Positions 1 through 21,921 of a DNA stretch of 35,680 bases are shown here, piece after piece (position 1 is the stretch's first letter; every line of letters begins with the position of its first letter). The notes beneath the pieces are model-generated. The model saw nothing but the letters and a program-made list of their open reading frames with translations, searched no databases and was not told where the DNA came from. The DNA is from an uncultured Oscillospiraceae bacterium (GTDB lineage Bacteria > Bacillota > Clostridia > Oscillospirales > Oscillospiraceae). The position numbers and the translations under genes are program-made. Location of the stretch: contig CANRMY010000025.1 of assembly GCA_947631845.1 (NCBI GenBank), positions 1 to 35,680 of the forward strand, written 5' to 3'.

Positions 1-83
1 TGCCTGCTGGTTTTTCCGGAGTGAATGACAGATAACACTTACAAAATTCCTGTCAAATCTTATTATACGAGGAGGGGACCCTG

Positions 84-1700: not shown

Positions 1701-1737
1701 GCACCGGGACAACCGCCCAATTCCTGATAATCTCCCC

Positions 1738-1980
1738 AAAAAGGTTGCGGCTTCGCCGCGTATTGTAAATTCGGGCCGCCAAGAGAGGCGGCCCCTACAA
1801 CGTATGGGAAAGCTTATTTGTAATTCGATGGGCCGCCGAGGGCGGCGGCCCCTACGGCGTCTAAGGAAAGATTGTCGGGAATTCGAAGGACGGGCCGATG
1901 TGGTCATCGGCCCCTACAGGAGGCTGCGGCTTCGCCGCTCATTCTAAAAATCGGGCCGCCTCTCGCAAGAGAGGCGGCCC
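1738..1980. repeat. Intergenic hairpin-repeat block 1 (four GC-rich palindromes)
   Basis: This fills most of the 345-base gap between the pyrophosphatase and DUF362 genes; no credible gene is present. Four imperfectly related units each form a perfect hairpin opening with GGGCC and closing with GGCCC plus CCTRCA. Arms are A 1773-1780/1787-1794, B 1830-1837/1844-1851, C 1892-1900/1905-1913 and D 1953-1964/1969-1980. A short GCGGC-TTC-GCCGC palindrome precedes units A (1747-1759) and D (1926-1938). Units A, B and C recur in the same order in a second block at 14.5-14.7 kb. They may be REP/MITE-like non-coding repeats or processed RNA hairpins; the family is not identified. Confidence 0.85.
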
Positions 1981-2010
1981 CTGCATTATAAACGGTAATC
2001 TTTCCGCACA

Positions 2011-2040
2011 CCGCCCCGTTTCAATCAGGGGCGGCGTCGT
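2011..2040. terminator. Probable bidirectional terminator
   Basis: A 7-bp GC stem (2011-2017 with 2028-2034) and a 10-base loop lie between the convergent pyrophosphatase and DUF362 genes, 11 bases beyond the DUF362 stop. The T-run is short on the + side and absent on the - side, so termination strength is uncertain. Confidence 0.5.
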
Positions 2041-2045
2041 TTTGC

Positions 2046-2933
2046 TCAGTCCACGCAGATGAGCTCGTAGTCCGTGGTGCCGCAGCCCAGGGCCGCGGCG
2101 GCCTCGATGGTGTGGCGGCCGTGGCGGGATTCCACGCGCTTCAGGAAATGCTTCTGGCCGGGATCGTCCGTGGCCGCGTCGATGAGATCCATGCAGGCCT
2201 TGTCCAGAGCCACGGGATCCAGGGAGGAGAGGGTGCCGATGTCCCTCATGCAGGGATCCTCCGCCTCCGCGCAGCAGTCGCAGTCCACGCTGAGATTGCA
2301 CATCATGCTGACAAAGGCGATCCGGCCCTCAAAGTGCTTATAGACCGCCATCGCCGCGTCGGCCATGGCCTCGGTGAAGCCGTCCTTGGAGGCGTGGTTT
2401 TTCCAGCAGGTGGCGGGGGCCAGATCCGTGCCGCCGGAGTGGATGTTGGCCTTGCCGGCGGCGGAGGCGCAGCCGATGGAGAGCTGCTTCAGCGCCCCGC
2501 CGTAGCCGCCCATGGGGTGCCCCTTGAAGTGGGCCAGCACCAGCATGGAGTCGTAATTCAGTAGATCCTTGCCCACCAGATCCCGCTTGAGCACCTTGCC
2601 GCCGGGGATCTCCAGCACCGCGTCCGGGCCGGTCTCATCCAGCAGATCCACGTTGAAAACCTCGCTCCAGCCGTGGGATTTCAGAAGCTTCAGGTGCTTT
2701 TCCGAGGTGTCCCGCGCCCCGCCGTAGGCGGTGTTCGTCTCCACCACGGTGCCGTTCACATACTCCACCATGGGCTTCATGAAGGCGGGCCTCAGATAGT
2801 TCTGGTTGCCCTCCTCGCCGGAGTGGACCTTGACCGCCACCTTGCCGGGGAGCGTGACGCCCAGATGTTTGTACATCTCCACCACCGTTTCGGGGGAGAG
2901 CTTTTTTGTAAAATAGACCTTTGCTTTTGCCAT
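2046..2933 (-). CDS. DUF362 domain-containing protein
   Basis: A 295-residue cytoplasmic protein of the DUF362 family, whose members are often iron-sulfur or ferredoxin-linked but mostly without assigned reactions. It is a single DUF362 domain with no separate ferredoxin domain. A conserved cysteine cluster, C-D-C-C then C seven residues on, precedes an IGTLSSLDPVALD segment near residues 240-255 and is a plausible metal or cluster site. A longer reading frame runs to 3233, but the start at 2933 is preferred: GGAGG lies about 9 bases upstream, and the extra N-terminus would be read from AT-rich promoter DNA. It is transcribed divergently from the arabinan operon. The function is not established and no link to arabinose use is visible. 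Confidence 0.88.
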   Translation of the reverse strand: MAKAKVYFTKKLSPETVVEMYKHLGVTLPGKVAVKVHSGEEGNQNYLRPAFMKPMVEYVNGTVVETNTAYGGARDTSEKHLKLLKSHGWSEVFNVDLLDETGPDAVLEIPGGKVLKRDLVGKDLLNYDSMLVLAHFKGHPMGGYGGALKQLSIGCASAAGKANIHSGGTDLAPATCWKNHASKDGFTEAMADAAMAVYKHFEGRIAFVSMMCNLSVDCDCCAEAEDPCMRDIGTLSSLDPVALDKACMDLIDAATDDPGQKHFLKRVESRHGRHTIEAAAALGCGTTDYELICVD

Positions 2934-2970
2934 ATAGATCCTTCCTCCAAAGGAAAAATAAGATAGGGTT

Positions 2971-2999
2971 ATTGTATCACGCTTTCGCCTCATATGCAA
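2971..2999 (-). promoter_or_regulatory. Candidate sigma-A promoter for the DUF362 gene
   Basis: On the minus strand a TTGCAT -35 (2994-2999), a 17-base spacer and a TACAAT -10 (2971-2976) lie about 40 bases upstream of the start. The spacing is ideal and the -35 is imperfect. Confidence 0.55.
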
Positions 3000-3031
3000 T
3001 CGAATATTTTTTCTCCGGCGCAGAAAAATCC

Positions 3032-3060
3032 TTGCTTTTATGAATGGAAGAATATATAAT
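3032..3060 (+). promoter_or_regulatory. Candidate upstream sigma-A promoter of the arabinan operon
   Basis: A TTGCTT -35 (3032-3037), a 17-base spacer and a perfect TATAAT -10 (3055-3060) lie in the 283-base divergent gap at 2934-3216. It would give a leader of about 150 bases before the GH43 start. No riboswitch fold or classical AraR palindrome was recognised in that leader. Confidence 0.5.
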
Positions 3061-3144
3061 ATAGGAAATATGACCATTGCGGGGCCGAAATAGAGGACCC
3101 TGGTTGGTCGTATCGCAAAAAAACGCAAATTTAACAAAATCGTC

Positions 3145-3173
3145 TTGAAAATCCTGTTTAACGGCGCTATTAT
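3145..3173 (+). promoter_or_regulatory. Candidate proximal sigma-A promoter of the arabinan operon
   Basis: TTGAAA (3145-3150), a 17-base spacer and TATTAT (3168-3173) sit just upstream of the GH43 ribosome site AGGGAGAG (3201-3208). The match and spacing are good and the leader would be about 35 bases. Together with the upstream candidate, this suggests two start points. Confidence 0.6.
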
Positions 3174-3216
3174 ACACCAGAAAACTTTTGGCTTAAAGCC
3201 AGGGAGAGACGATTTT

Positions 3217-4170
3217 ATGAGCGCTCCATCCATCTACAACCGCGTCTGGATCCCTCAGCGGGCGGATCCTTACGTCTACCGCCACACCGACGGGAAGTAC
3301 TACTTTACCGCCTCCGTCCCCGCCTACGACGGCATCTGCCTGCGCCGGGCCGACACGCTGGCGGGCCTGGCCGCCGCCCCCGAGACGGAGGTCTGGCACA
3401 AGCACGAGTCCGGCATCATGTCCATCCACGTGTGGGCGCCGGAGCTCCACTTTCTGGACGGGAAATGGTACATATATTACTCCGCCGGCGACAAGGACGA
3501 CATCTGGGAGATCCGCCCCTATGTTCTGGAGTGCCTGGGGGACGACCCCCTCGCCGGCCCCTGGGTGGAGCGGGGCAAGCTCACCCGCGCCGAGGGGGAC
3601 GATTTCTCCTTCGAGGCCTTCTCCCTGGACGGAACGGTGTTTGAGAACAGGGGAGAGCGCTATTATGTGTGGAGCGAAAAAGTGGGCGTGGGCAAGCAGA
3701 TCGCCAACCTCTACATCGCCCACATGAGCTCGCCCACCAGCCTCGACTCCGTCCAGGTCCTGCTGAGCACGCCGGATTACGACTGGGAGCGCCACGGCTT
3801 CTGGGTCAACGAGGGCCCCTCCGTCCTCCACCACAACGGCAAGCTCTATCTGACCTATTCCGCCTCCGAGACGGGTGTAAAATACTGCATGGGGATGCTC
3901 ACCGCCGACGAAAACGCCGACCTGCTGGATCCCCTGAGCTGGAAAAAGGAGCGCTGGCCCGTCCTGCAAAGCTCCTATGAGCACGGCATCTACGGCCCCG
4001 GCCACAACTCCTTCACCGTGGACGAGGAGGGCCATGATATCATGGTCTACCACGCCCGTACCGAGGTGGAGATCGTGGGCAACCCCCTCTACAACCCCAA
4101 CCGCCACGCCATGCTGATGCGGATCCGTTACGACGCCGCCGGCAGGCCGGTGTTCAGCTTTGATGATTGA
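3217..4170 (+). CDS. Glycoside hydrolase family 43 protein (probable arabinofuranosidase/arabinanase-type)
   Basis: A 317-residue five-bladed beta-propeller hydrolase that probably removes arabinofuranosyl or xylosyl units from oligosaccharides. GH43 hallmarks are visible: ADPYVY near the N-terminus (candidate general base Asp17), WAPEL at residues 73-77, and NEGPSV with candidate general acid Glu199, followed by GPGHNSF late in the chain. There is no signal peptide, so it should act inside the cell on imported oligomers. The start at 3217 is favoured over a longer frame from 3145 because it has an AGGGAGAG site and the extension would overlap the promoter. It is the first gene of the operon and its stop lies 10 bases before the GH51 start. 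Substrate choice between arabinan and xylan is inferred from the neighbours. Confidence 0.9.
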
Positions 4171-4180
4171 GGTGAAAATG

Positions 4181-5680
4181 ATGACGACGGTAAAAATCAA
4201 CGCGAAATCCCCCCAAAGCACCATCGCGCCGGAGATCTACGGTCATTTCTCCGAGCATCTGGGCCGGTGCATCTACGAGGGCATCTTTGTCCGGCCCGAC
4301 TCCGGCATCCCCAACGTCAACGGGATGCGCACCGACGTGGTGGAGGCCCTGCGGGAGCTGAAGGTCCCCGTCCTGCGCTGGCCCGGCGGCTGCTTTGCCG
4401 ACGAGTACCACTGGATGGACGGCATCGGCCCTAAGGAGACCAGGAAAAAGATGATCAACACCCACTGGGGCGGCGTCACCGAGGACAACTCCTTCGGCAC
4501 TCACGAATATTTTGAGCTCTGCCGCCAGCTGGGGTGCAAGACCTACGTCAACGGCAATGTGGGCTCCGGCTCCGTGCGGGAGATGAGCGAGTGGGTGGAG
4601 TACATGACCTTCCCCGGCCTGTCCCCCATGGCGGAGCTGCGGGCGAAAAACGGCCACCCCGACCCCTGGCGGGTGGATTATTTCGGCGTGGGCAACGAGA
4701 ACTGGGGCTGCGGCGGCAATATGACGCCGGAGTATTACGCCAACCTCTACCGGCGCTACCAGACCTACGTCCGGCACTACGACAACGCCGCGCCCCTCAA
4801 GAAGATCTGCTGCGGCGCCAATGTGGACGACGACGAGTGGACGGAGAATGTGCTGCGCACCTGCTTCAAATTCCCCCAGCCCGACGAGGCCCACGGCTTC
4901 ATGGACGGACTGAGCCTGCACTACTATGTCCATCCGGGCGGATGGAAGCACAAGGGCAGCGCCCTGGATTTTGATGAGAGCGTCTATTACACCACCATGA
5001 AGAAGGCCCTCTACATGGAGGATCTGATCAACCTCCACGGGGCCATCATGGACAAATACGACCCCGAAAAGCAGATCGGCATGATCGTGGACGAGTGGGG
5101 CAGCTGGTACGACGTGGAGCCGGGGACAAATCCGGGCTTCCTCTATCAGCAGAACACGGTGCGCGACGCGCTGATCGCGGCGGTGACCCTGAACATCTTC
5201 AATAACCACTCCGACCGGGTGAAGATGGCCTGCCTTGCCCAGATGGTCAACGTCCTCCAGGCGGTGATCCTCACCGAGGGGCCCAAAATGCTCCTGACGC
5301 CCACCTACCATGTGATGCACATGTACAAGGGCCACCAGGGCGGCCGGCTCCTGCCCACGGAGGTGGTCAATGGCGGCACCGTGGGAGCGGGGGAGAGCGT
5401 GGTGCCCCGGCTGAACGTCTCCGCCTCCCAAAAGGACGGCGCTGTCACCGTCACCGCCGCCAACCTGTCCCTGACGGAGGAGACCGAGGTGGAGCTTCGC
5501 TTCGACGGGCTGATCCCCTCCGGCGCCCAGGCCGTTGTCCTCTCCGGCGAGGTACACGCCCACAACACCTTCGACGACCCCGACGCCGTCGCCGAGCGGA
5601 AGCTGGATGTCCGCTGTGAGGGCAGCACCGTCGCCTTCACCCTTCCCGCCTGCGGCGTGGCGGCGGTCACCTTAAACTAA
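4181..5680 (+). CDS. Alpha-L-arabinofuranosidase, GH51
   Basis: A 499-residue retaining arabinofuranosidase (EC 3.2.1.55) that releases L-arabinose from arabino-oligosaccharides. Its (beta/alpha)8 barrel shows the clan GH-A pair: acid/base Glu173 in GVGNENWG and nucleophile Glu305 in IVDEWGSW. The barrel is followed by a C-terminal beta domain (about 390-499) that begins after the [10 protein letters not shown] segment. Length is typical of bacterial AbfA. It lacks a signal peptide and is cytoplasmic. Start choice: TTG 4160, ATG 4163, 4178 and 4181 are all in frame. The GAGGTGA site at 4169-4175 fits 4181 best, and this site overlaps the GH43 stop, suggesting translational coupling. It directly feeds AraA encoded next. 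Confidence 0.93.
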
Positions 5681-5717
5681 AATAATAAATAAGAATATGG
5701 TTAAGGAGGTTACAGCA

Positions 5718-7199
5718 ATGGATATGTACGCAAAGGAATTCTGGTTCGTAGTGGGCAGTCAGTTCCTCTACGGGCCCGAGGTGCTGGACACCGTGGCCGC
5801 CCGCGCCGCCGAGATGGCGGACTGGTGGAACAAGAGCGGGTCCCTGCCCTGCAAGGTGGTCTATAAGGGCACCGTCAAGACCGACGCCGAGATCACAAAG
5901 ACCATGAAGGCCGCCAACGCCGACGATGCCTGCGCCGGCATCATCACTTGGTGCCACACCTTCTCTCCCAGCAAGATGTGGATCCACGGCTTTGACCTTC
6001 TGCAAAAGCCCTACTGCCACCTGGCCACCCAGTATAACCGCAACATCCCCAACCTTGAGATCGACATGGACTTTATGAACCTGAACCAGGCCGCCCACGG
6101 CGACCGGGAGCACGGCTTCATCGGCGCCCGGATGCGCCTGCCCCGGAAGATCATCGCCGGCTACTGGCAGGACAAGCCCGTTTTGGAGGAGCTCTCCGCC
6201 TGGATGCGCTCCGCCGTGGGCTATGCCTTCTCCCGGGAGCTGAAGATCATCCGCTTCGGCGACAACATGCGCGAGGTGGCCGTCACAGAGGGCGACAAGG
6301 TGGAGACCCACATCAAGCTTGGCTGGCAGGTGGACTACTGGCCCGTGGGCCATCTGGTGGAGACCATGGACGCCGTGACGGACGCGGAAGTGGACGCCAA
6401 GATGGCGGAGTATGAGAGCCGCTACACCATGGACACCGACGACATCGCCACCGTGCGCTACCAGGCCCGGGAGGAGATCGCCATGCGGAAGATCCTGGAG
6501 CGGGAGGGCGCTTCGGCCTTCTCCAACAACTTCCAGGACCTCTACGGCATGGAGCAGCTGCCCGGCCTTGCCACCCAGAACATGATGGCCGACGGCTGCG
6601 GCTACGGCGGCGAGGGCGACTGGAAGACCGCCGGTATGACCGCCATCATGAAGGCGATGGCCAAGGGCCTGCCCGGCGGCACCGTCTTCATGGAGGACTA
6701 CACCTATGACTTAGAGCCGGGGAAGGAGGTCTCCCTCGGCGCGCACATGCTGGAGGTCTGCCCCTCCATCGCCGCCCAAAGGCCGAAGATCCAGGTCCAT
6801 CCCCTGGGCATCGGCGACCGCCAGCCCCCCGCCCGCCTTGTCTTCGAGGGCAAGGAGGGCCCCGGCATCGTGGCGACGCTCATCGACATGGGCGGCCGTC
6901 TGCGCCTGCTGATCCAGGATATCGAGGTCATCAAGCCCATCTACGAGATGCCCAACCTCCCCGTGGCCCGGGTCATGTGGAAGGCGGCCCCGGATCTGCT
7001 CACCGGCGTCAAGTGCTGGATCATGTCCGGCGGCGCCCACCATACGGTCCTCAGCACCGCCGTCACCGCCGAAATGATGATCGACTGGGCGCGGATGATG
7101 GAGATCGAGTGCGTCCACATCACCAAGGACACCAGGCCCGAGGAACTGGAAAAGGAGCTTTTCTACAACGATATCGCCTGGAAGCTGAAGAATATCTGA
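5718..7199 (+). CDS. araA: L-arabinose isomerase
   Basis: Converts L-arabinose to L-ribulose (EC 5.3.1.4), the first step of arabinose catabolism. The 493-residue protein matches the usual ~500. Metal and catalytic residues known from E. coli AraA are present: Glu299 in GEGDWKT, Glu326 in FMEDYTY, His343 in LGAHMLEV, and the late GGAHHT histidines. The conserved YGMEQLPGLATQ segment (about 277-288) is also seen. The frame is open from 5697, but ATG 5718 is chosen because AAGGAGGT (5703-5710) sits at correct spacing before it. It follows the GH51 gene after 37 bases with no promoter visible. Confidence 0.97.
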   Translation: MDMYAKEFWFVVGSQFLYGPEVLDTVAARAAEMADWWNKSGSLPCKVVYKGTVKTDAEITKTMKAANADDACAGIITWCHTFSPSKMWIHGFDLLQKPYCHLATQYNRNIPNLEIDMDFMNLNQAAHGDREHGFIGARMRLPRKIIAGYWQDKPVLEELSAWMRSAVGYAFSRELKIIRFGDNMREVAVTEGDKVETHIKLGWQVDYWPVGHLVETMDAVTDAEVDAKMAEYESRYTMDTDDIATVRYQAREEIAMRKILEREGASAFSNNFQDLYGMEQLPGLATQNMMADGCGYGGEGDWKTAGMTAIMKAMAKGLPGGTVFMEDYTYDLEPGKEVSLGAHMLEVCPSIAAQRPKIQVHPLGIGDRQPPARLVFEGKEGPGIVATLIDMGGRLRLLIQDIEVIKPIYEMPNLPVARVMWKAAPDLLTGVKCWIMSGGAHHTVLSTAVTAEMMIDWARMMEIECVHITKDTRPEELEKELFYNDIAWKLKNI

Positions 7200-7214
7200 G
7201 AAATACCGTCTACC

Positions 7215-7243
7215 GGCCGTGGGAGTTTTTTCCTTCCACGGCC
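7215..7243 (+). other. Stem-loop between araA and the GH93-like gene
   Basis: An 8-bp perfect stem (7215-7222 with 7236-7243), extendable by a G-U and an A-U pair, encloses a T-rich loop. It starts 15 bases after the araA stop. No T-run follows the 3' arm, so it is a poor terminator; it could instead protect the 3' end of an upstream mRNA segment. Confidence 0.5.
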
Positions 7244-7287
7244 TGAGTTGCTTATTTTGAGCGGATTTTTGGAAAGGGGAGAACCGT

Positions 7288-8445
7288 ATGGCGATCGAGC
7301 TTAAAAAGGATTTCACCGGCGTGGTGTATTCCCCCCGGCGGGAGGAGGTCTACGGCAACGGCGGCGGGGTGCTCTACCCACGGCCCATCGAGCTCCACCA
7401 CGCAGGGGAGGACAACGGCCTTGTGCTGGCCGCCTTCGACCACTACACCGTCAAGGAACCGCCTGTGACGCCCATCTACGCCTCCCGGGACGGGGGAAAG
7501 ACCTGGGAATTTTACAGTCAGGTGGAGGACACCAAGAACGGCTGCGGCCTCCGGTTCCAGCCGGTGCTTTTAGAGCTGGACCGGGACGTGGCGGACCTGC
7601 CCGCCGGGACGCTGGTGTTCTCGGCAAACTCCATCCCCCTGACCTTTGAGGTCACCGAGCTTCTCTTCTTCATCAGCCGGGACCACGGCAGGACCTGGGA
7701 GTACCGCTCCACCGTCTGCGCCGGCGGCCCGCCTGTGGAGCAGAACTGGGACGCCCTGGGCCCCGTGTGGGAGCCCTTCATCTATCTGAACGCCGACGGG
7801 GACATCACCGTCATTTACACCGACGAGCGGCCCCACACCGACCGCCGCCTCAACCAGACCCTGGCCCTGCAGGTGTCCAAGGACGGCGGGCTGACCTGGG
7901 GGGAGGAGAAATTCGTCACCGCCGTCCCCGACGGCTTCTCCCGTCCCGGTATGGCCATCGTGACGAGGCTTCCCGACGGCCGGTATTTCGTCTGCTACGA
8001 GTGCGTCAACTTCAAGGATTCCATGTTCCCGCCCTGCGAGGTGCATTTCAAGCTCTCCCCGGACGGCGTGGATTGGGGCGACCCGGCGGACTTGGGCCCC
8101 GTGGCCCAGACCGAGGACGGCTTCTTTCTGGGGAGCATGCCCTACTGCCTGTGGATCCCCCAGGGCGGCCCCAACGGCACCATCATCCTCTCCAGCAAGA
8201 AGGACTCCGGCCCCGTGGGACTTCGGGAACCGGGCTGGTTCCTGGTCAATTACGACCTGGCCCGGGGCCCCTGGGAGAAGGTGCCCATGCTGGTGACCTA
8301 CGACTCCCGTATGCACCAGGCCGGTTGGAGCATGGGCATGTGTACCGTGGAGGACGGCAAGCGGCTGCTGCAGCTGTGCCCCTCCCAGATGGACACCCGT
8401 ATGCTCCAGATCAGCTACGGCCTGGCGGATATCCTGGAGAAATAA
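7288..8445 (+). CDS. Sialidase-fold glycoside hydrolase, GH93-like (probable exo-arabinanase)
   Basis: A 385-residue beta-propeller protein with three Asp-box (BNR) motifs of the form S-x-D-x-G-x-T-W (SRDGGKTW, SRDHGRTW, SKDGGLTW). An automatic label would be sialidase. The motif string VWEPF, YTDER, S-D-x-G-x-T-W, RPGM, CYE instead resembles GH93 exo-1,5-alpha-L-arabinobiosidase, where two glutamates form the active site; here Glu162 (WEPF) and Glu238 (CYE) are the candidates. No signal peptide is seen, so it should trim imported arabinan oligomers in the cytoplasm. The place between araA and the kinase gene supports this over sialidase activity. ATG 7288 follows AAAGGGGAG. The GH93 call comes from recalled motifs, not a search. 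Confidence 0.75.
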   Translation: MAIELKKDFTGVVYSPRREEVYGNGGGVLYPRPIELHHAGEDNGLVLAAFDHYTVKEPPVTPIYASRDGGKTWEFYSQVEDTKNGCGLRFQPVLLELDRDVADLPAGTLVFSANSIPLTFEVTELLFFISRDHGRTWEYRSTVCAGGPPVEQNWDALGPVWEPFIYLNADGDITVIYTDERPHTDRRLNQTLALQVSKDGGLTWGEEKFVTAVPDGFSRPGMAIVTRLPDGRYFVCYECVNFKDSMFPPCEVHFKLSPDGVDWGDPADLGPVAQTEDGFFLGSMPYCLWIPQGGPNGTIILSSKKDSGPVGLREPGWFLVNYDLARGPWEKVPMLVTYDSRMHQAGWSMGMCTVEDGKRLLQLCPSQMDTRMLQISYGLADILEK

Positions 8446-8503
8446 TCCCCCAAGCGGGATCTGATTTATAAAATATAACCGATGAAGAAGGAGTGTTGAC
8501 CCT

Positions 8504-10072
8504 ATGGATCTGAAAAAGACGGCGCTGGGCATCGAGCTCGGCTCCACCCGCATCAAGGCGGTGCTCATCGACGAAAACCACATCCCCGTGGCCTCCGGAG
8601 ACCACGAGTGGGAGAACCGGCTGGTGAACGGCGTCTGGACCTACTCCATGGACGCCATCCACCAGGGACTGCGGGATTGCTACGCCAATCTCAAGAAGGA
8701 CGTGCGGGAGAAATTCGGTGAGGAGCTGACCACGGTGGGGGCCATCGGCGTCTCCGCCATGATGCACGGCTATCTGCCCTTTGACAAGGACATGAACCAG
8801 CTGGCGGAGTTCCGCACCTGGCGCAATACCATCACCGGCCAGGCCGCCGAGGAGCTGACCAGGCTCTTTGGCTTCAACATCCCCCAGCGGTGGTCCATCG
8901 CCCACCTCTACCAGGCCATTTTGAACGGCGAGGAGCACCTGCCGCGTCTGGCGCACCTGACCACCCTGGCCGGGTACATCCACTACGAGCTGACGGGCCG
9001 CCACGTCATGGGCGTGGGCGAGGCCGCCGGCATGTTCCCCATCGACAGCGCCAAAAACGACTACGATCAGCGGATGGTGGACCTCTTCGACGCCCTCACC
9101 GAGTTCAAGGGCTACAGCTGGAAGCTCCGGGACGTGCTGCCGGAGGTGCTCACGGCCGGGGAGAACGCGGGGATGCTCACCGCCTCCGGCGCGCTGTTCC
9201 TGGATCCCACCGGCGCGCTTGTCCCCGGTATCCCCGTGGCCCCCTGCGAGGGCGACGCCGGCACCGGTATGGCCGCCACCAACTCCGTGCGGGTGGGCAC
9301 CGGCAATGTCTCCGCCGGCACATCGGATTTCGCCATGGTGGTGGTGGATAAGCCCCTGGGCGTCCACCGGGAGATCGACATGGTCACCACCCCCTCCGGC
9401 GCGCCCGTGGCTATGGTCCACTGCAACAACTGCACCTCGGACATCAACGCCTGGGTGGGCCTGTTCGCTGACTTCGCCGCCTCCGCCGGCTTTAAAATGG
9501 ACCGGGGCGACCTGTTCACCCTGCTCTTTAAGAAAGCTATGGAGGGCGACCCCGACTGCGGCGGCCTTCTCAGCTTCAACTACTTCTCCGGCGAGGGCGT
9601 CACCGACCTGGACGAGGGCCGGCCCCTCTTTGTGCGGACGCCGGACGCCAGGGTGACCCTGGCCAACTTCATGCGGACCCATCTGCTGTCCGCTCTCGCC
9701 ACCCTAAAGATCGGCCTGGATATCCTGACGGGGGAGGAGAAGGTCCGCATCGACAAGCTCTACGGCCACGGCGGCTTCTTCAAGACCCCGGGCGTGGGAC
9801 AGACCATGCTCTCCGCCGCCGCCGGCGTGCCCGTCTCCGTCATGGAGACAGCCGGGGAGGGCGGCCCCTACGGCATGGCGCTCCTGGCCGCCTATATGAT
9901 CTGGAAAAAGCCCGGCGAGGCCTTGGACGACTACCTGGAGTCCCGCGTCTTCGCCTCCGCCAGATCCACCACCCTGATGGCCGACGCGTCCGACGTGGAC
10001 GGCTTCAACACCTTCCTGGAGACCTATAAAAAGGCCCTACCGGTGGAGCGTCTGGCCGCCCAGGTGCTGTGA
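8504..10072 (+). CDS. araB: FGGY-family carbohydrate kinase, probable L-ribulokinase
   Basis: A 522-residue sugar kinase of the FGGY/ASKHA fold, expected to phosphorylate L-ribulose to L-ribulose-5-phosphate using ATP. The N-terminal [14 protein letters not shown] phosphate-1 loop (about residues 8-21), the [13 protein letters not shown] segment (about 83-95) and the glycine-rich C-terminal [15 protein letters not shown] adenosine region (about 450-464) are visible. It is shorter than E. coli AraB (~566) and its substrate cannot be read from sequence. The assignment rests on position between araA and araD with no other kinase gene in the operon. GAAGGAG lies about 10 bases before ATG 8504. 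The stop overlaps the next gene's GTG start. Confidence 0.82.
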
Positions 10073-10869
10073 TCCTCCCGGCCTGGAAACAGCGGGCCTG
10101 GAGGCTCCTGCTCTTTGACCTGGACGACACCCTGCTCAGAAGCGACAAGACCGTGCCGCCCCGGACGCTGGAGGCCCTGGGACGGATCCGGCGGGAGAGG
10201 AGCGTCCTCATCGGCGTCTCCACCTCCCGGAGCGAGGTGAACGCGGAGGTGTTTACCCGGAGGCTGAATCCCGATGTGCTGATCACCAGCGGCGGGGCCC
10301 GCGTCCGGGCGGGGGAGAGGATCCTCTTTCACGCGCCCTTTACAGGGGAAGAAACAGGTAGTATAATAAAGACGGCGCGGGCCATAGCCGGACGCGGCGT
10401 CCTGATGGACGCGGATACGCCGCGCGCCCATTACCGCAACTACCCGGCCAGCGAGCACAAGGTCCCCGCCGGCTTTGAAAGGTGCGTGGATACGGACTTC
10501 TCAAGCCCCCCGGAGGACGCCCTGATGGTGTGCGTCAAGCTCCCGGATCCCGCGCTGGCGGACCGGCTGCGCCGGGAGACGCCCTTCGCGGACGTGACCC
10601 GGTTCGTCAATTCCGACTGGTACAGGCTGATCCGAAAGGGCGTCACCAAGGAGACGGGACTTCAAACGCTCCGCGCCGCCCTGGATCTGGATCCACAGGA
10701 TATGGTTGCCTTCGGCGACGACCTGGCGGACGTGGAGATGCTCCGGGCCGCCGGCCTGGGCGTGGCCATGGGCAACGCCGTGCCGGAGGTGAAGGCCGCC
10801 GCCGATATGGTCATCGGCCGCAACGACTCCGATGCCATCGCGGACTTTTTGAATGACCTGTTCCCATAA
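10069..10869 (+). CDS. HAD superfamily hydrolase, Cof-like phosphatase
   Basis: A 266-residue HAD phosphatase of the C2-capped Cof type. Motif I is FDLDDTLL with nucleophile Asp17 and acid Asp19; motif II is in GVSTSRS; the motif III lysine is likely in IRKGVTKE; motif IV is [10 protein letters not shown]. The GTG start overlaps the kinase stop (GTGA), implying translational coupling; no strong ribosome site is seen. A sugar-phosphate phosphatase that relieves build-up of L-ribulose-5-P or related esters would fit the operon, but the substrate is unknown and this role is inference. Confidence 0.85.
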
Positions 10870-10880
10870 AACTGCCCTGT

Positions 10881-10898
10881 GGGCCGGACACCCGGCCC
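10881..10898. repeat. Single hairpin-repeat unit, E-type
   Basis: A 7-bp perfect palindrome (10881-10887 with 10892-10898) in the 71-base gap between the HAD and araD genes. Its reverse complement matches the core of the E-type unit at 14561-14582, so it is a lone, inverted, possibly degraded member of the same family, lying inside an operon. Confidence 0.6.
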
Positions 10899-10940
10899 GC
10901 GTTCCGAATAACACACACACTGAAAACAGGAGGAATCCCT

Positions 10941-11636
10941 ATGCTTGAAGAACTGAAACAGCAGGTGCTGGAGGCCAACCTGCTCCTGCCCAAACACGGC
11001 CTTGTGACCTTCACCTGGGGCAACGTCTCCGGCATCGACCGGGAGCGGGGCCTGGTGGTCATCAAGCCCTCCGGCGTGGAATATGACGGCATGAAGGCGG
11101 AGGACATGGTTGTGGTGGACATGAACGGCAGCCGGGTGGAGGGGCGCTATAAGCCCTCCTCCGATACGCCCACCCATGTGGCCCTCTACAAGGCGTTCCC
11201 GACTCTGGGCGGCATCGTCCACACCCACTCCCGCTGGGCCACGTCCTTTGCCCAGGCCGGGCGCGGCATCCCGCCCTTCGGCACCACCCAGGGGGATTAT
11301 TTCTACGGCGAGATCCCCTGCACCCGCCGCATGACCCCGGAGGAGATCGCGGGGGAGTACGAGCTGGAGACGGGCAACGTCATCATCGAGACGTTCATCA
11401 AGCGGGATATCTCTCCCGCCGATATCCCCGCCGTCCTGGTCTGCTCCCATGGCCCCTTCGCCTGGGGGACCGACCCCATGAACGCCGTCCACAACGCCGT
11501 GGTGCTGGAGGAGGTGGCCTTTATGGCCTTCCACGCCATGGCGCTCACCCCCGGCCTGCCCCCGATGCAGCAGGAGCTGCTGGACAAGCACTATCTCCGC
11601 AAGCACGGCGCCAACGCCTACTACGGACAAAACTGA
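10941..11636 (+). CDS. araD: L-ribulose-5-phosphate 4-epimerase
   Basis: Epimerises L-ribulose-5-P to D-xylulose-5-P (EC 5.1.3.4), the exit to the pentose phosphate pathway. The 231-residue length is exactly that of the class II aldolase-type family. Visible signatures are the GNVSGIDRE phosphate loop near residue 30, KPSGVEYD, the zinc-binding HTHSRWA pair, and a later zinc histidine in [12 protein letters not shown] 10941 follows AGGAGGAA. The transketolase gene begins 17 bases after its stop, so arabinose entry and pentose-phosphate conversion are coordinated. Confidence 0.96.
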
Positions 11637-11653
11637 GGAGGAAGAAAACCGCA

Positions 11654-12499
11654 ATGACTGATTTGGAAAAGAAAGACCTGGCTATTAAGGCCACAAAGGT
11701 GCGCATGGGGGTCATCGAGGGCACCCACGCGGCCAAGGCGGGCCACCCCGGCGGCTCCCTTTCCGCCGCCGACATGTTCACCTACCTCTACTTCAAGGAG
11801 CTGAACATCGACCCTAACGACCCCAAAAATCCCGACCGGGACCGGTTCGTGCTCAGTAAGGGCCACACCGCCCCCGGCCTCTACGCCGCCCTGGCGCTGC
11901 GGGGCTTCTTCCCCTGGGAGGATCTGAAGACCCTCCGCCAGATCGGCAGCCACCTGCAGGGCCACCCCAACATGAACCTGACCCCCGGCGTGGATATGTC
12001 CACCGGCTCTTTGGGCCAGGGCGTCTCCTGCGCCGCCGGTATGGCCAAGGCCGCCAAGTACATGGGCAAAACCTGCCGCGTCTATACGCTCCTGGGCGAC
12101 GGCGAGATCGAGGAGGGCCAGGTCTGGGAGGCCTTCATGTTCGCCGCCAACTATAAGCTGGACAACTTCGTGGCCATCATCGACAAGAACGGCCTGCAGA
12201 TCGACGGGCCTACAAAGGACGTGATGGACTCCGGCGATATCGCCGCCAAGCTCCGGGCCTTCGGCTTTGAGGTCATGGAGATCAACGGCCACGATTTTGA
12301 CGAGATGGAGGCCGCCTTTACGAAGGCCCGCGAGACAAAGGGCAAGCCCTTCGGCATCGTGATGCACACCGTCAAGGGCACCGGCGTCAGCTACATGACC
12401 AACAGCGTCGAGTGGCACGGCAAGGCCCCCAACGACGCGGAGTACGAGATCGCCATGAACGAGCTGAACGCTCACCTGGCAGAACTGGAGGCGAAATAG
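11654..12499 (+). CDS. Transketolase, N-terminal subunit
   Basis: The 281-residue N-terminal half of a split transketolase (EC 2.2.1.1), carrying the pyrophosphate-binding part of the thiamine diphosphate site. Visible features are AGHPGGSLSAADM (about 26-38), LSKGHTAPGLYAAL (about 65-78), and the GDGEIEEGQVWEA ThDP motif near 150 with KNGLQIDG later. With the C-terminal subunit it consumes the D-xylulose-5-P made by AraD. Splitting is common in Clostridia and not a frameshift, since each half has its own start. GAGGAGGAA precedes ATG 11654. The stop lies inside the first hairpin of the downstream intergenic structure. Confidence 0.94.
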   Translation: MTDLEKKDLAIKATKVRMGVIEGTHAAKAGHPGGSLSAADMFTYLYFKELNIDPNDPKNPDRDRFVLSKGHTAPGLYAALALRGFFPWEDLKTLRQIGSHLQGHPNMNLTPGVDMSTGSLGQGVSCAAGMAKAAKYMGKTCRVYTLLGDGEIEEGQVWEAFMFAANYKLDNFVAIIDKNGLQIDGPTKDVMDSGDIAAKLRAFGFEVMEINGHDFDEMEAAFTKARETKGKPFGIVMHTVKGTGVSYMTNSVEWHGKAPNDAEYEIAMNELNAHLAELEAK

Positions 12500-12560
12500 T
12501 ATGATAAATCATACTATTGATTTTTATTTCGCCGTGCCGGACGCAGCCGGCACATGGCGA
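12490..12560 (+). other. Two perfect hairpins after the transketolase N-subunit stop
   Basis: Arm 12495-12504 pairs perfectly with 12509-12518 over a 4-base loop and contains the TAG stop of the upstream gene; a T-rich stretch (12521-12529) follows, giving a weak terminator or attenuator look. Next, 12534-12540 pairs with 12547-12553, extended by 12529-12533 with 12556-12560 across a 2-base bulge. The 12526-12533 segment can alternatively pair with 12490-12497. These are direct sequence observations; a regulatory role is inference. Confidence 0.7.
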
Positions 12561-12561
12561 A

Positions 12562-12625
12562 TAATCCTCCATGCGCTGTGGAGGAACGGAAAAAATATAT
12601 ATTGCGCTAAGCGCATGGAGGATTA
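12562..12625 (+). promoter_or_regulatory. Ribosome-site-sequestering inverted repeat with alternative hairpin
   Basis: A 16-base perfect inverted repeat, 12562-12577 with 12610-12625, contains the GGAGG (12617-12621) of the transketolase C-subunit gene in its right arm. The left arm can instead pair locally: 12565-12571 with 12579-12585 (7 bp, 7-base loop). The two pairings are mutually exclusive and would leave the ribosome site closed or open. This resembles a translational switch or thermosensor. No known riboswitch class was recognised. Confidence 0.7.
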
Positions 12626-12627
12626 AT

Positions 12628-13566
12628 ATGGCAGACGTAAAGAAAATGGCGACCCGCGACGCCTACGGCCAGGCTCTGGCCAAGCTGGGCGCGGAGAAAT
12701 CCGATCTGGTGGTCTTCGAGGCCGATCTGGCCGCCGCCACCAAGACCGGCGTATTCAGAAAGGCGTTCCCCGACAGGCACTTTGAGTGCGGCATCGCCGA
12801 GGGCAACATGATGGCGGTGGCCGCCGGCGCGGCCAGCATGGGCCTGGTGCCCTTCGCCAGCTCCTTCGCCATGTTCGCCGCCGGACGGGCCTTTGAGCAG
12901 GTGCGCAACTCCATCGGCTACCCCCATCTGAACGTGAAGATCGGCGCCACCCACGGCGGTATCTCCGTGGGCGAGGACGGCGCCTCCCACCAGTGCTGTG
13001 AGGACTTCGCCCTGATGCGCTCCATCCCCGGTATGGTGGTGCTGTGCCCCTCCGACGCGGTGGAGGCCGAGGCCGCCGTCCGCGCCGCCTATGAGCACCA
13101 GGGCCCCGTCTACCTCCGGTTCGGCCGTCTGGCGATCCCCGTTTTCCACGATGAGAATACCTTCCAATTTGAGATCGGCAAGGGCGAGACCCTCCGGGAG
13201 GGCGACGATGTGGCCATCATCGCCACGGGCCTCATGGTCTACGAGGCCCTCCAGGCCGCCGACGCTTTGAAGGCCGAGGGCATCAACGCCCGGGTCGTCA
13301 ACATCTGCACCGTCAAGCCCCTGGACACCGAGATCGTCCTGAAGGCCGCCCGGGAGTGCGGCAAGATCGTCACCGCCGAGGAGCATTCCATCATCGGAGG
13401 CTTGGGCGAGGCCGTCTGCGCCGTGGTGGCCGAGTCCGGCATCCCCTGCAAGGTGAAGCGCGTGGGCGTCAACGACGAGTTCGGCCACTCCGGCCCCGCC
13501 GTGCCCCTGCTCAAGCAGTTCGGCCTTTCCGCGGAGAACATCGTTAACGTGGTCAAAGCCCTGTAA
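12628..13566 (+). CDS. Transketolase, C-terminal subunit
   Basis: A 312-residue partner of the N-terminal subunit, made of the pyrimidine-binding and C-terminal transketolase domains. Visible segments are ECGIAEGNMMAVAAG (about 45-60, with the glutamate that contacts the ThDP pyrimidine), the HGGISVGEDGASHQ loop near 100, and C-terminal AEEHSIIGGLGEAV. An earlier in-frame ATG at 12571 lies in the intergenic hairpin and lacks a suitable site; ATG 12628 has GGAGG 6 bases upstream. The 128-base gap to the N-subunit is unusually long for subunits of one enzyme and is packed with inverted repeats. Confidence 0.95.
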   Translation: MADVKKMATRDAYGQALAKLGAEKSDLVVFEADLAAATKTGVFRKAFPDRHFECGIAEGNMMAVAAGAASMGLVPFASSFAMFAAGRAFEQVRNSIGYPHLNVKIGATHGGISVGEDGASHQCCEDFALMRSIPGMVVLCPSDAVEAEAAVRAAYEHQGPVYLRFGRLAIPVFHDENTFQFEIGKGETLREGDDVAIIATGLMVYEALQAADALKAEGINARVVNICTVKPLDTEIVLKAARECGKIVTAEEHSIIGGLGEAVCAVVAESGIPCKVKRVGVNDEFGHSGPAVPLLKQFGLSAENIVNVVKAL

Positions 13567-13623
13567 AAATCAGAAGATCCAGCCAAAACGCTTAAAATAA
13601 ACTCATTTAAGGAGGAATTTGTT

Positions 13624-14277
13624 ATGAAACTCTTCATCGACACCGCCCATGTGGAGGATATCCGCAAGGCAAACGATCTGGGCGTCATCTGCGGCGTCAC
13701 CACCAATCCCAGCCTTATCGCCAAGGAGGGCCGCGACTTCAAGGAGGTCATTCAGGAGATCACCTCCATCGTGGACGGCCCCATCTCCGGCGAGGTCAAG
13801 GCCACCACCACCGACGCCGAGGGCATGATCAAGGAAGGCCGCGAGATCGCCGCCATCCATCCCAATATGGTCGTCAAGATCCCCATGACCGCCGAGGGCC
13901 TCAAGGCCGTGAAGGTGCTCCACAGCGAGGGCATCAAGACCAACGTGACCCTGGTCTTCACCGCCAACCAGGCGCTCCTGGCCGCCCGGGCCGGCGCCAC
14001 CTATGTCAGCCCCTTCCTGGGCCGTCTGGATGACATCTCCACCGAGGGCGTGGCTCTCATCGAGGACATCGTCACCATCTTCGATAACTACGGCTTCGAC
14101 ACCGAGATCATCTGCGCCTCCATCCGCAACCCCATCCATGTGACCCAGTGTGCCCTGGCCGGCGCCCACATCGCCACTATTCCCTACAGCGTCATCGAGC
14201 AGATGCTCCATCACCCCCTGACCGACGCCGGAATCGAGAAGTTCAAGAAGGACTACATCGCCGTCTTCGGTGAGTAA
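13624..14277 (+). CDS. fsa: Short transaldolase of the FSA/transaldolase family
   Basis: A 217-residue TIM-barrel aldolase using a Schiff-base lysine, Lys85 in [11 protein letters not shown], at the same number as in E. coli FSA. Family names vary between fructose-6-phosphate aldolase and transaldolase. Two residues that differ between these activities look transaldolase-like here: Glu57 (Gln59 in FSA) and Phe131 (Tyr131 in FSA). I therefore favour transaldolase (EC 2.2.1.2), which with the upstream transketolase would complete the non-oxidative pentose phosphate steps from arabinose. AAGGAGGA precedes ATG 13624. It is the last gene of the operon, followed after 11 bases by a strong terminator. 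Confidence 0.93.
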
Positions 14278-14288
14278 ACCCCACTTTT

Positions 14289-14333
14289 ATGCAAAAAGCC
14301 GGACAGGAGCCTTTCCTGTCCGGCTTTTTGCAT
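14289..14333 (+). terminator. Strong intrinsic terminator of the arabinan operon
   Basis: A 20-bp perfect stem (14289-14308 with 14314-14333) and a 5-base loop start 11 bases after the transaldolase stop. The A-run of the 5' arm and T-run of the 3' arm are inside the palindrome, so it can work in both directions. Confidence 0.93.
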
Positions 14334-14410
14334 AGCGTACAGTACGGATCCGTTTCCAAGCGACACGCCGGCGGCACGCGTATTTCCGGGGATTTTCCTC
14401 CAGAAACGCC

Positions 14411-20316: not shown

Positions 20317-21173
20317 ACAAGCTGACCCTGGACGCCTGCGCCAAGCTGAATCTGACCCTGGACGTGGGGGAGAAAAGACCGGACGGTTACCATAACATGG
20401 AGATGCTCATGCAGTCCGTGTCCCTCTACGATACAGTTGACATAACATTAACGACCGGAAAGGACATTGAAGTTATGTCAACTGACCCGAGCTTGCCGAC
20501 TGGTGTACATAATCTTGCCGGAAAAGCGGCAAAAGCCTTTCTGAGTTATGTTAACATAACCGATATCGGCATAGAAGTTTACATAACTAAGAGAATCCCC
20601 GACAGGGCCGGGCTGGCCGGAGGGAGCGCGGACGCGGCGGCGGTGATCCGGGGCCTGGACAGACTGCTGGATACGCGCCTTTCCGCGAGGGATCTTTCCT
20701 CTATTGCCCTCGCCGTTGGCTCCGATGTGCCCTTCTGCCTCTTTGGCGGCACGGCGCTTGCCCGCGGGCGGGGGGAGCTGCTCACGCCGCTGCCGGCTGT
20801 GCCGGACTGCGGCATCCTCATTGTGAAGCCGGACTTTTCCGTGTCCACCCCGGCGCTGTTCGCCGCCCTGGACGGTTGTCAGGTGAGGTTGCGGCCCGAT
20901 ACCCAGGGGGCCGTTGACGCGTTGTGCGCCGGGGATCTGAGCGCCCTGGCGGGGTATATGGTCAATGTCTTTGAGGAGGCCCTGCCGGAGGCGGAGCGGC
21001 GGACGGTGGTTGACATAAAGTCGGAACTTCTTTCCGACGGCGCGTTGGGGGCCTGCATGACGGGGACCGGTTCCGCTGTATTCGGGCTTTTCCCCACCCT
21101 TGCGGACGCTCAGAGGGCCGATCTCAGGCGTTTTGGCGAGACTTTTGCTGTTTCTCCCGTTAAAAGGCTTTGA
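20313..21173 (+). CDS. ispE: 4-diphosphocytidyl-2-C-methyl-D-erythritol kinase
   Basis: A 286-residue GHMP kinase that phosphorylates CDP-methylerythritol in the MEP isoprenoid pathway (EC 2.7.1.148). Visible features are AKLNLTLDVGEKRPDGYH at the N-terminus and the ATP-binding PDRAGLAGGSADAAAV glycine loop (about 95-110); length is normal. ATG 20313 overlaps the aminotransferase stop; a longer open frame from 20076 is only the shifted reading of that gene. Oddly, codons 40-92 are AT-richer than the flanks and use rare GTT-NAC-ATA runs, forming repeated GTTNACATAA motifs, although the encoded protein still reads as a normal family member. Confidence 0.95.
   Translation: MNKLTLDACAKLNLTLDVGEKRPDGYHNMEMLMQSVSLYDTVDITLTTGKDIEVMSTDPSLPTGVHNLAGKAAKAFLSYVNITDIGIEVYITKRIPDRAGLAGGSADAAAVIRGLDRLLDTRLSARDLSSIALAVGSDVPFCLFGGTALARGRGELLTPLPAVPDCGILIVKPDFSVSTPALFAALDGCQVRLRPDTQGAVDALCAGDLSALAGYMVNVFEEALPEAERRTVVDIKSELLSDGALGACMTGTGSAVFGLFPTLADAQRADLRRFGETFAVSPVKRL
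20435..20586. repeat. GTTNACATAA motif cluster inside ispE
   Basis: Inside the coding sequence the motif occurs at 20436-20445 (+), 20473-20482 (-), 20503-20512 (variant), 20550-20559 overlapping 20546-20555 in a perfect 16-bp palindrome (20545-20560), and 20577-20586. The first two form a 12-bp inverted repeat (20435-20446 with 20472-20483). Further copies follow at 21009-21018, 21876-21885, 21912-21921 and 21930-21939. I see no copies elsewhere in the window. Function unknown. Confidence 0.65.
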
Positions 21174-21264: not shown

Positions 21265-21870
21265 ATGAAGCTGAAAACCTGGGAGATCGCGCTGATCTGC
21301 GCGTTTTTGACTGTATTTATGTGCGGATTTTCCGTCCAGAGGGAGGAGGCGGCGCTGTCCGGGAAGCTGGTGCGGCTCCATGTGGTGGCCAACTCCGATT
21401 CCGAGGCCGATCAGGCGCTGAAGCTGCGGGTCCGGGACGCGGTGCTGGAATATTTGCGGCCGCGTCTGGAGGGCGTGGAGGACGCGGAGGAGGCCCGCCG
21501 GATCCTTGACGGGAGCCTGGAGGGGATCGTGGAGGCCGCCGGGGCGGTGACGGACGGGGAGGGCGCCGGCTACGGCGTCACCGCGTCCCTCTGCCGTGAG
21601 AGTTTTCCCACCACCCAGTATGACAACTTCGCCCTGCCGGCGGGGGAATACCTGTCCCTGCGGGTGAAGCTGGGGGCCGCCGCCGGCCACAACTGGTGGT
21701 GCGTGGTGTTCCCGCCCATCTGCGACGCCGGCGTCATCGACACGGACACCGCCGACGCCATCGGCCTTTCCGGGAAGGAGGCGAAGCTCATCACCGCCGA
21801 CGGCCCGGGCTATGTGGTGAAGTTTCGCCTGATGGAGTGGATCGGATCGTTTCTCTCCCTGTTTCATTGA
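21265..21870 (+). CDS. spoIIR: Stage II sporulation protein R
   Basis: A 201-residue secreted signalling protein. In Bacillus and Clostridium, SpoIIR made in the forespore activates the SpoIIGA protease in the mother cell, which processes pro-sigma-E. The family core VRLHVVANSDSEADQ (about 36-50), LKLRVRDAVL, and the C-terminal NWWCVVFPPIC (about 148-158) are clear. An N-terminal hydrophobic segment (about 7-23) serves as export signal. The ribosome site is weak: AAAGGA at 21242 is about 17 bases before the ATG. No clear sigma-F promoter was recognised in the short AT-rich gap, where the ispE terminator lies. Its presence marks the organism as a likely endospore former. Confidence 0.95.
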   Translation: MKLKTWEIALICAFLTVFMCGFSVQREEAALSGKLVRLHVVANSDSEADQALKLRVRDAVLEYLRPRLEGVEDAEEARRILDGSLEGIVEAAGAVTDGEGAGYGVTASLCRESFPTTQYDNFALPAGEYLSLRVKLGAAAGHNWWCVVFPPICDAGVIDTDTADAIGLSGKEAKLITADGPGYVVKFRLMEWIGSFLSLFH

Positions 21871-21875
21871 CATGG

Positions 21876-21921
21876 GTTAACATAAAAAGCCCCGCCACAA
21901 GGCGGGGCTTTTTATGTTAAC
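21876..21921. terminator. Bidirectional intrinsic terminator between spoIIR and the LTA-synthase operon
   Basis: A 21-bp perfect stem (21876-21896 with 21901-21921), a 4-base loop, and A/T runs within the arms, placed between convergent genes. Its outer ends are GTTAACATAA motifs identical in type to those in ispE; one more copy follows at 21930-21939 across the end of the convergent gene. Confidence 0.93.

Follow-up and report, generated by a model that had tools for sequence, protein, structure and literature searches.

A palindromic insertion between the two transketolase subunit genes of an Oscillospiraceae bacterium and a small reading frame that may preserve their translational coupling

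Why does a run of palindromic DNA lie between two genes for the subunits of one transketolase, and how could the second gene be translated across it? The question arises in a stretch of 35,680 nt from an uncultured Oscillospiraceae bacterium, the whole of which we call the window, where an earlier reading of the sequence alone had pointed to a 128-nt gap between the stop codon of the first gene (TAG, 12497-12499) and the start codon of the second (ATG, 12628). The gap is exactly as described. The sequence-only reading offered three guesses for it: a metabolite or temperature sensor, a translation-coupled latch, or a palindromic mobile repeat that had landed there. The two genes, under the names that we give them, are as follows.

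11654..12499, + strand: tktN, transketolase N-terminal subunit gene, with stop codon TAG at 12497-12499
12628..13566, + strand: tktC, transketolase C-terminal subunit gene

Across tktN, NCBIfam transketolase models match with their N-terminal part and stay under the whole-protein cut-offs, as expected since the gene encodes half a protein. The C-terminal part of such models matches tktC, in which Pfam Transket_pyr and Transketolase_C are both above cut-off (scanned with an extension from 12571 included). Upstream of tktN in the operon, NCBIfam models point to an L-arabinose isomerase (5697), an FGGY-type kinase (8504; its top match, xylulokinase, falls under the cut-off), a HAD hydrolase (10069), and araD (10941); a fructose-6-phosphate aldolase/transaldolase-type gene (13624) follows tktC. 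The genome, a draft assembly of 119 contigs, carries a second, divergent transketolase pair on contig 35 (42% and 35% identity), whose joint, judged by eye, is a short overlap without an insert.

A lineage-specific insertion between tktN and tktC

Comparison with relatives clearly sets this locus apart. With start codons picked by script, the tktN-tktC gap ranges from -17 to +3 nt in all 56 other genomes measured (29 congeners and 27 genomes of other genera), and the long gap is unique to the window's genome among the 57 loci measured together. The commonest gap in the relatives is 1 nt (38 genomes), followed by 3 nt (8), 2 nt (2), and 0 (1); the remainder overlap, at -1 (1), -4 (2), -8 (3), and -17 (1). 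A GGAGG lies no more than 20 nt from the C-subunit start in 52 of the 56. The congeners measured come from 31 with a tktN match among 33 other congeners, 2 having no match, and the 27 genomes of other genera are the best protein matches out of 172 matching among 200 family genomes searched, a count that takes in the window's own genome and the congeners.

The nearest relative, G002, shares 96% DNA identity in tktN and 94% in tktC and is collinear with the window from 70 to 14285, with ~94% identity across the operon. Its alignment breaks between window positions 12498 and 12624, and the matching G002 bases, 2597 and 2598, are adjacent. The long alignments on either side (window 1913-12498 and 12624-14285) hold no indel larger than 11 nt, and the collinear stretch contains one other length difference, at window 1727-1912, where 186 bases face 73. 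Three further relatives, G018, G024, and G022, break at the same pair of positions, and two others, G001 and G010, at 12504/12634. Taken together, the short gaps in all 56 relatives and the break against G002 identify 12499-12627 as a lineage-specific insertion of ~127 bp at the stop/start joint, as far as the lineage was sampled.

12504..12623, + strand: inserted core of 120 bp, placed by the alignment breaks, with boundaries uncertain by a few bases

The palindromes themselves are real and far beyond chance. Three in a row had been reported for the gap, and every repeat named is present in the sequence.

12495..12518, + strand: H1 hairpin, 11-bp perfect arms (12495-12505/12508-12518) around AA, -8.5 kcal/mol in isolation
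12528..12561, + strand: H2 hairpin, 13 pairs with a bulge, -21.9 kcal/mol in isolation
12562..12625, + strand: H3 hairpin, 16-bp perfect outer arms (12562-12577/12610-12625), -29.4 kcal/mol in isolation
12565..12585, + strand: weaker competing hairpin, 7-bp arms (12565-12571/12579-12585), -11.1 kcal/mol in isolation

The longest inverted repeat measures 16 bp, against a maximum of 11 bp in 400 dinucleotide shuffles of 12490-12630. Folding of 12480-12640, which the sequence-only reading had proposed, gives -64.2 kcal/mol (z -6.4), and none of 200 shuffles folds as well. H1 does include the tktN stop codon and is followed by T-rich sequence, and the right arm of H3 does hold the tktC GGAGG (12617-12621), both as claimed. 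The 7-bp hairpin that was to compete with H3 exists, but it is far weaker; a competitor 18 kcal/mol short of H3 in isolation gives nothing to suggest a balanced two-state switch. The left arm of H3 also contains an ATG (12571), absent from the earlier description, that shares the tktC reading frame; gene-calling software may therefore extend the protein by 19 residues. We do not prefer an N-terminally extended tktC from this codon: no ribosome site is seen upstream of it, and the relatives start at the position of 12628. One weak promoter-like match (12476-12505) was found where shuffles expect 0.3, and one terminator-like site, on the opposite strand, where shuffles expect 0.7.

The idea of a conserved switch did not survive the comparison. 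Its proposers held that related genomes lacking the inverted repeat would tell against it, and the repeat is absent from all 56 relatives; covariation therefore cannot be asked. No Rfam family matches anywhere in the window at the gathering score, and at a lax threshold 12400-12700 yields a single match (12402-12433, E 3.3), which lies outside the insert and is at chance level. On these two grounds we reject a conserved RNA. The locus holds no conserved switch but an isolated insertion particular to this lineage, which looks rare and tolerated and unlike a conserved metabolite switch.

A small reading frame and a possible route of translation

The insert also contains a feature that the sequence-only reading had passed over, a small open frame fitted between the two genes.

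12487..12491, + strand: GGAGG within the tktN end; ribosome site of the C-subunit gene in the ancestral arrangement, now 5' of the small frame
12501..12626, + strand: small open frame of 41 codons plus stop (MINHTIDFYFAVPDAAGTWRIILHALWRNGKNIYCAKRMED), ATG at 12501 and TAA at 12624-12626, with no convincing homologue
12617..12621, + strand: GGAGG, new ribosome site of tktC, 6 nt before ATG 12628, assigned from sequence and a pairing calculation

Its start and stop each sit one base from the neighboring stop and start, so that both ends of the insert have the form stop-1nt-ATG (TAG-t-ATG at 12497-12503 and TAA-t-ATG at 12624-12630). The spacing between the old GGAGG and the small-frame ATG is the ancestral one, and the final codons of the frame include the new GGAGG. 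It is the one forward frame of the insert without stops; the same phase is open on the other strand. Such a frame stays open in 12.5% of dinucleotide and 8.4% of mononucleotide shuffles of the core, and the joint fit of frame and length, which we obtained by multiplying 12.5% by one in three, would arise by chance in ~4% of cases, a figure that is suggestive but not proof.

Nothing in the encoded peptide marks it as a product of selection. The codon index of the small frame is 0.26, compared with 0.71-0.75 in three neighboring genes and 0.17-0.24 in the other frames of the insert; codon use so different from that of the neighbors gives, in this single sequence, no sign of selection as a gene. 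The best Pfam match of the 41-aa peptide, DUF6164 (E 0.018; 15.5 bits against a cut-off of 27), is taken as chance, since the family is above cut-off in none of 34 genus genomes and none of 14 controls. PHROGs gave one match, of unknown function (E 0.065), and NCBIfam none at E 0.1. By tblastn the peptide matched 31 phage records (best E ~2 among the matches listed) and no plasmid record. Among 60 relatives, 19 matched at E <= 1, the window's own genome included, with a best value of 0.026 outside it; 11 of these loci were inspected and are unconvincing. The peptide is probably without an evolved function.

The frame could nonetheless matter for its position. In the relatives, as a rule, a GGAGG stands close to the tktN end, and the two genes are 0-3 nt apart or overlap slightly. 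In the window, a ribosome finishing tktN would reinitiate one base on, at the small-frame ATG, by way of the old GGAGG. It would read the 41 codons and so open H3, which otherwise buries the tktC GGAGG, and would then halt at the TAA and reinitiate one base further on at tktC. A ribosome halted at the tktN TAG, within H1, would fall short of H3, but one that had reinitiated would reach it. Coupling of the two subunits would thus be handed through a small intermediate frame, and the insertion would be tolerated.

Pairing calculations are consistent with the later steps. The predicted unpaired probability of the tktC GGAGG is 0.00 in the whole RNA versus 0.73-0.91 when the RNA starts at 12570-12590, a cut that stands in for a ribosome sitting on the left arm of H3. 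To open 12617-12630, the longest RNA tested requires 12.6 kcal/mol and an RNA that starts at 12571 requires 2.2 kcal/mol; the corresponding figure at the ancestral joint of six relatives is 1.0-5.4 kcal/mol. Other calculations speak against the relay. H1 encloses the start of the small frame, whose ribosome site takes 8.3-9.2 kcal/mol to open and whose ATG, in the whole RNA, is unpaired with a probability of just 0.01. For the tktC ATG, pairing with downstream sequence predominates (unpaired 0.12-0.36) with or without the left arm. Structure directly after a stop codon is also reported to reduce reinitiation (PMC7518266). Gaps of ~20 nt are reported to abolish coupling almost completely (PMC10666635); on that evidence ribosomes are unlikely to be relayed directly over 128 untranslated bases, and a route through the small frame is more plausible. 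Other studies, as cited in PMC12548453, found no effect of spacing up to +25 nt, so the field appears divided on this point.

On balance, we lean towards an insertion that preserves translational coupling of tktN and tktC through the small frame, whose translation we infer. Of the three original guesses the translation-coupled latch fits best once the small frame is noticed, and the latch and the landed palindrome together come closest to what we find. The coupled small frame probably keeps the insert tolerable.

A simpler account is possible, though we hold it clearly less probable: a plain tolerated insertion, inert or mildly harmful, with a frame open by chance, reduced or leaky initiation at tktC, and compensation by the second transketolase pair. 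An open frame is expected in about one in eight shuffles, the codon use of the small frame is poor, the peptide has no convincing homologue, and with a second pair in the genome the insertion could be tolerated even if tktC expression were reduced. Against this stand the stop-1nt-start arrangement at both ends in the same frame and a tktC ribosome site good in both sequence and spacing; in addition, a gene of an arabinose-type operon would otherwise be severely blocked by 16 bp of stem covering its ribosome site. A cis-regulatory switch newly evolved in this species, sensing a metabolite or temperature through two alternative pairings, would make use of the ribosome site buried in a strong stem and of the alternative hairpin that does exist. 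We consider it very improbable: it is absent from every relative measured, the Rfam search gave nothing at the gathering score and only the one chance-level match outside the insert at the lax threshold, the alternative hairpin is weaker by the margin given above, and a stem of -29 kcal/mol would be too stable for a thermometer near growth temperature. The same absence from relatives, lack of an Rfam match, and weakness of the competitor leave the original sensor proposal unsupported.

If the relay is real, the locus is a clean natural experiment on translational coupling: dozens of relatives keep the two genes within a few bases of each other, and one genome separates them by 127 bp of structured DNA that carries an ORF. 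Such a relay would show how operons for the subunits of one enzyme can absorb insertions with coupled translation kept. If the small frame is untranslated, this is an ordinary tolerated insertion.

Ends, copies, and origin of the insert

Whether the insert arrived from elsewhere or arose in place can be approached from its ends.

12497..12503, + strand: left stop/start joint TAGTATG (TAAGATG in the nearest relatives), possible left target duplication
12624..12630, + strand: right stop/start joint TAATATG, possible right target duplication

The joint of the nearest relatives reads GGCGAAA-TAA-g-ATGGCAG; in the window the left joint reads GGCGAAA-TAG-t-ATG and the right one GGAT-TAA-t-ATGGCAG. 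The two 7-base joints are identical at 6 of 7 bases and may represent a target duplication. Neither equals the TAAGATG of G002, so the duplication may equally well be of 2 bp (TA) or absent. Terminal inverted repeats would pair the two ends of the core, which are uncertain by a few bases; none of the inverted repeats listed does so.

A second copy was sought widely. In the window's own genome, beyond the locus itself, only partial matches of 14-24 nt to the insert occur, and the H3 arm with up to 3 mismatches is found at 49 places, among which no second opposed pair was seen by eye. In overlapping samples of 34 genus, 400 family, and 391 class genomes, only the window's own genome gave a full-length match. 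Short partial matches turned up in 5 other genomes of the genus (E <= 0.05) and in 4 others of the family (E <= 0.001), the better of which were inspected in part. One of them (L108) is a stretch just 5' of a 163-aa ORF, which we take to encode an inorganic pyrophosphatase, another (L110) falls inside a 271-aa ORF, and L109, L111, L077, L003, L018, L025, and others show nothing insert-like by eye. Phage records gave one 31-nt match to the insert (E 0.5) and plasmid records none. The arm-pattern search returned nothing from viral contigs and three stretches from one-genome-per-species contigs, none resembling the insert: one lies within a 272-aa ORF, one has arms flanking an N run, and one has unrelated flanks. 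The collections searched may leave out records of the window's own genome. The same sequence was thus not seen at many unrelated loci, and in what was searched it is not a dispersed repeat. Of the proposed landed mobile repeat, the landing holds, with an empty joint in relatives, but no second copy was found in the sets searched.

For the origin of the insert, as distinct from its function, we tentatively entertain a local fold-back by template switching at the host joint, with no mobile element. Nine nucleotides of the host flank, GGCGAAATA, recur in inverted form inside the insert at 12525-12533, a match length reached in 0.4% of shuffles, and hint at such a fold-back; two base differences from the nearest relatives (AG to GT, 12499-12500) sit in a paired arm of H1; and the sets searched hold no second copy. 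Weighing the other way, no source within ~3 kb accounts for the remainder of the insert, the 16-bp H3 arms among it: the longest inverted match there (10 nt) and the longest direct match (12 nt) are both within the shuffle range. It is unlikely, in our estimate, that a mobile palindromic family of these bacteria shows itself here for the first time, with members that target the stop/start joints of coupled genes, duplicate the joint, and relay ribosomes through their own frame; such an element would have independently evolved a MIRU-like strategy by which the host operon survives insertion, and mobility here would be an inferred property. An assembly or binning artefact in the draft genome has a very small probability. 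The insert is known from a single assembly with no independent sequence of the species; on the other hand, there is no N run, both genes are free of frame damage, the flanks are collinear with G002 on both sides, and a well-placed ribosome site stands exactly at the tktC start.

Known systems and other palindromes of the genus

Several described elements resemble the insert in part. Mycobacterial MIRUs appear to be mobile, insert at start codons, and carry an ORF coupled to the gene there (PMC12548453), and this internal ORF is said to limit insertion damage (Supply et al. 1997, as cited in PMC12548453). The insert is similarly short and, by comparison with relatives, placed at a start codon, with an open frame that may be coupled to the next gene. 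It differs in its joint spacing, +1 here and a -4 nt ORF overlap in the MIRU as given in the same source. MIRUs have dispersed copies, whereas no repeat copies were found here; moreover, the insert is strongly palindromic and its host is an Oscillospiraceae bacterium, not a mycobacterium. By analogy, our best reading is that the insert may work like a MIRU without being a member of that family, from which copy number and the -4 spacing separate it.

Rickettsia palindromic elements (RPEs) are described as ~150 bp long, with an open frame translatable with host genes (PMC10969869). The insert shares with RPEs, as outlined there, a palindrome and an open frame; RPEs are multi-copy and nearly half lie in host ORFs, whereas the insert is single-copy as searched and intergenic. 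ORF-bearing MITEs, in the account of PMC10969869, likewise combine a palindromic segment with an open frame, but the insert has no clear terminal inverted repeats and no multiple copies in the genomes searched. Coupling by RNA unfolding plus reinitiation has been reviewed (PMC12548453), and the insert resembles the arrangements outlined there and in PMC10666635 in that the tktC ribosome site lies in a stem that an upstream ribosome could open and a stop and a start stand one base apart; the difference is that tktC has directly upstream of it an orphan insert in place of a recognized gene. Riboswitches and other conserved cis-regulatory RNAs have conserved structures or known families; for the insert, the 56 relatives measured show no such structure, and no Rfam family matched at the gathering score. 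Among papers considered by title or by the opening of the abstract, we found no description of the insertion.

Other palindromes occur in the window and the genus. The gene gap from 1727 to ~1985 holds a G+C-rich hairpin array (GGGCCGCC...GGCGGCCCC; also GGGCCGCC...GGCGGCCCCTAC and GGCTGCGGCTTCGCCGC), parts of which match several places in G018, among them one of 163 bases at 83%. On inspection by eye the array has nothing in common with the transketolase insert; it is another dispersed palindromic repeat. The length difference to G002 at 1727-1912 indicates that hairpin-rich insertions of other kinds occur in the operon's gene gaps in this genus. The G022 operon has ~280-310 extra bases in two gaps that are short in the window (L138, 7410-7750 and 10605-10955).

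A further palindrome, GGCGGGTTNNNAACCCGCC, lies between tktC and the aldolase gene at L134 (G018, ~11395) and L136 (G001, ~3640-3800). It is present in 19 of 34 genus genomes in very uneven numbers: 214 places in G014, 82 in G021, 70 in G016, 64 in G011, 42 in G018, 33 in G017, 29 in G027, 21 each in G001 and G030, 16 in G033, 8 in G031, and 1-4 in eight genomes, including 2 in the window's own. This distribution reflects a burst within one genus. Many of the places listed in G014 form pairs ~197 bp apart, an arrangement that is REPIN- or MITE-like. Elsewhere in the window, 21-bp perfect inverted repeats at 14288-14334, just 3' of the aldolase gene, and at 21876-21921, 3' of the 21265-21870 ORF, are probably terminators. 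A 13-bp perfect inverted repeat with a 25-nt loop, CAGTTGACATAAC, lies at 20434-20484; TTGACA falls within its arm, and the repeat may therefore act as an operator overlying a promoter.
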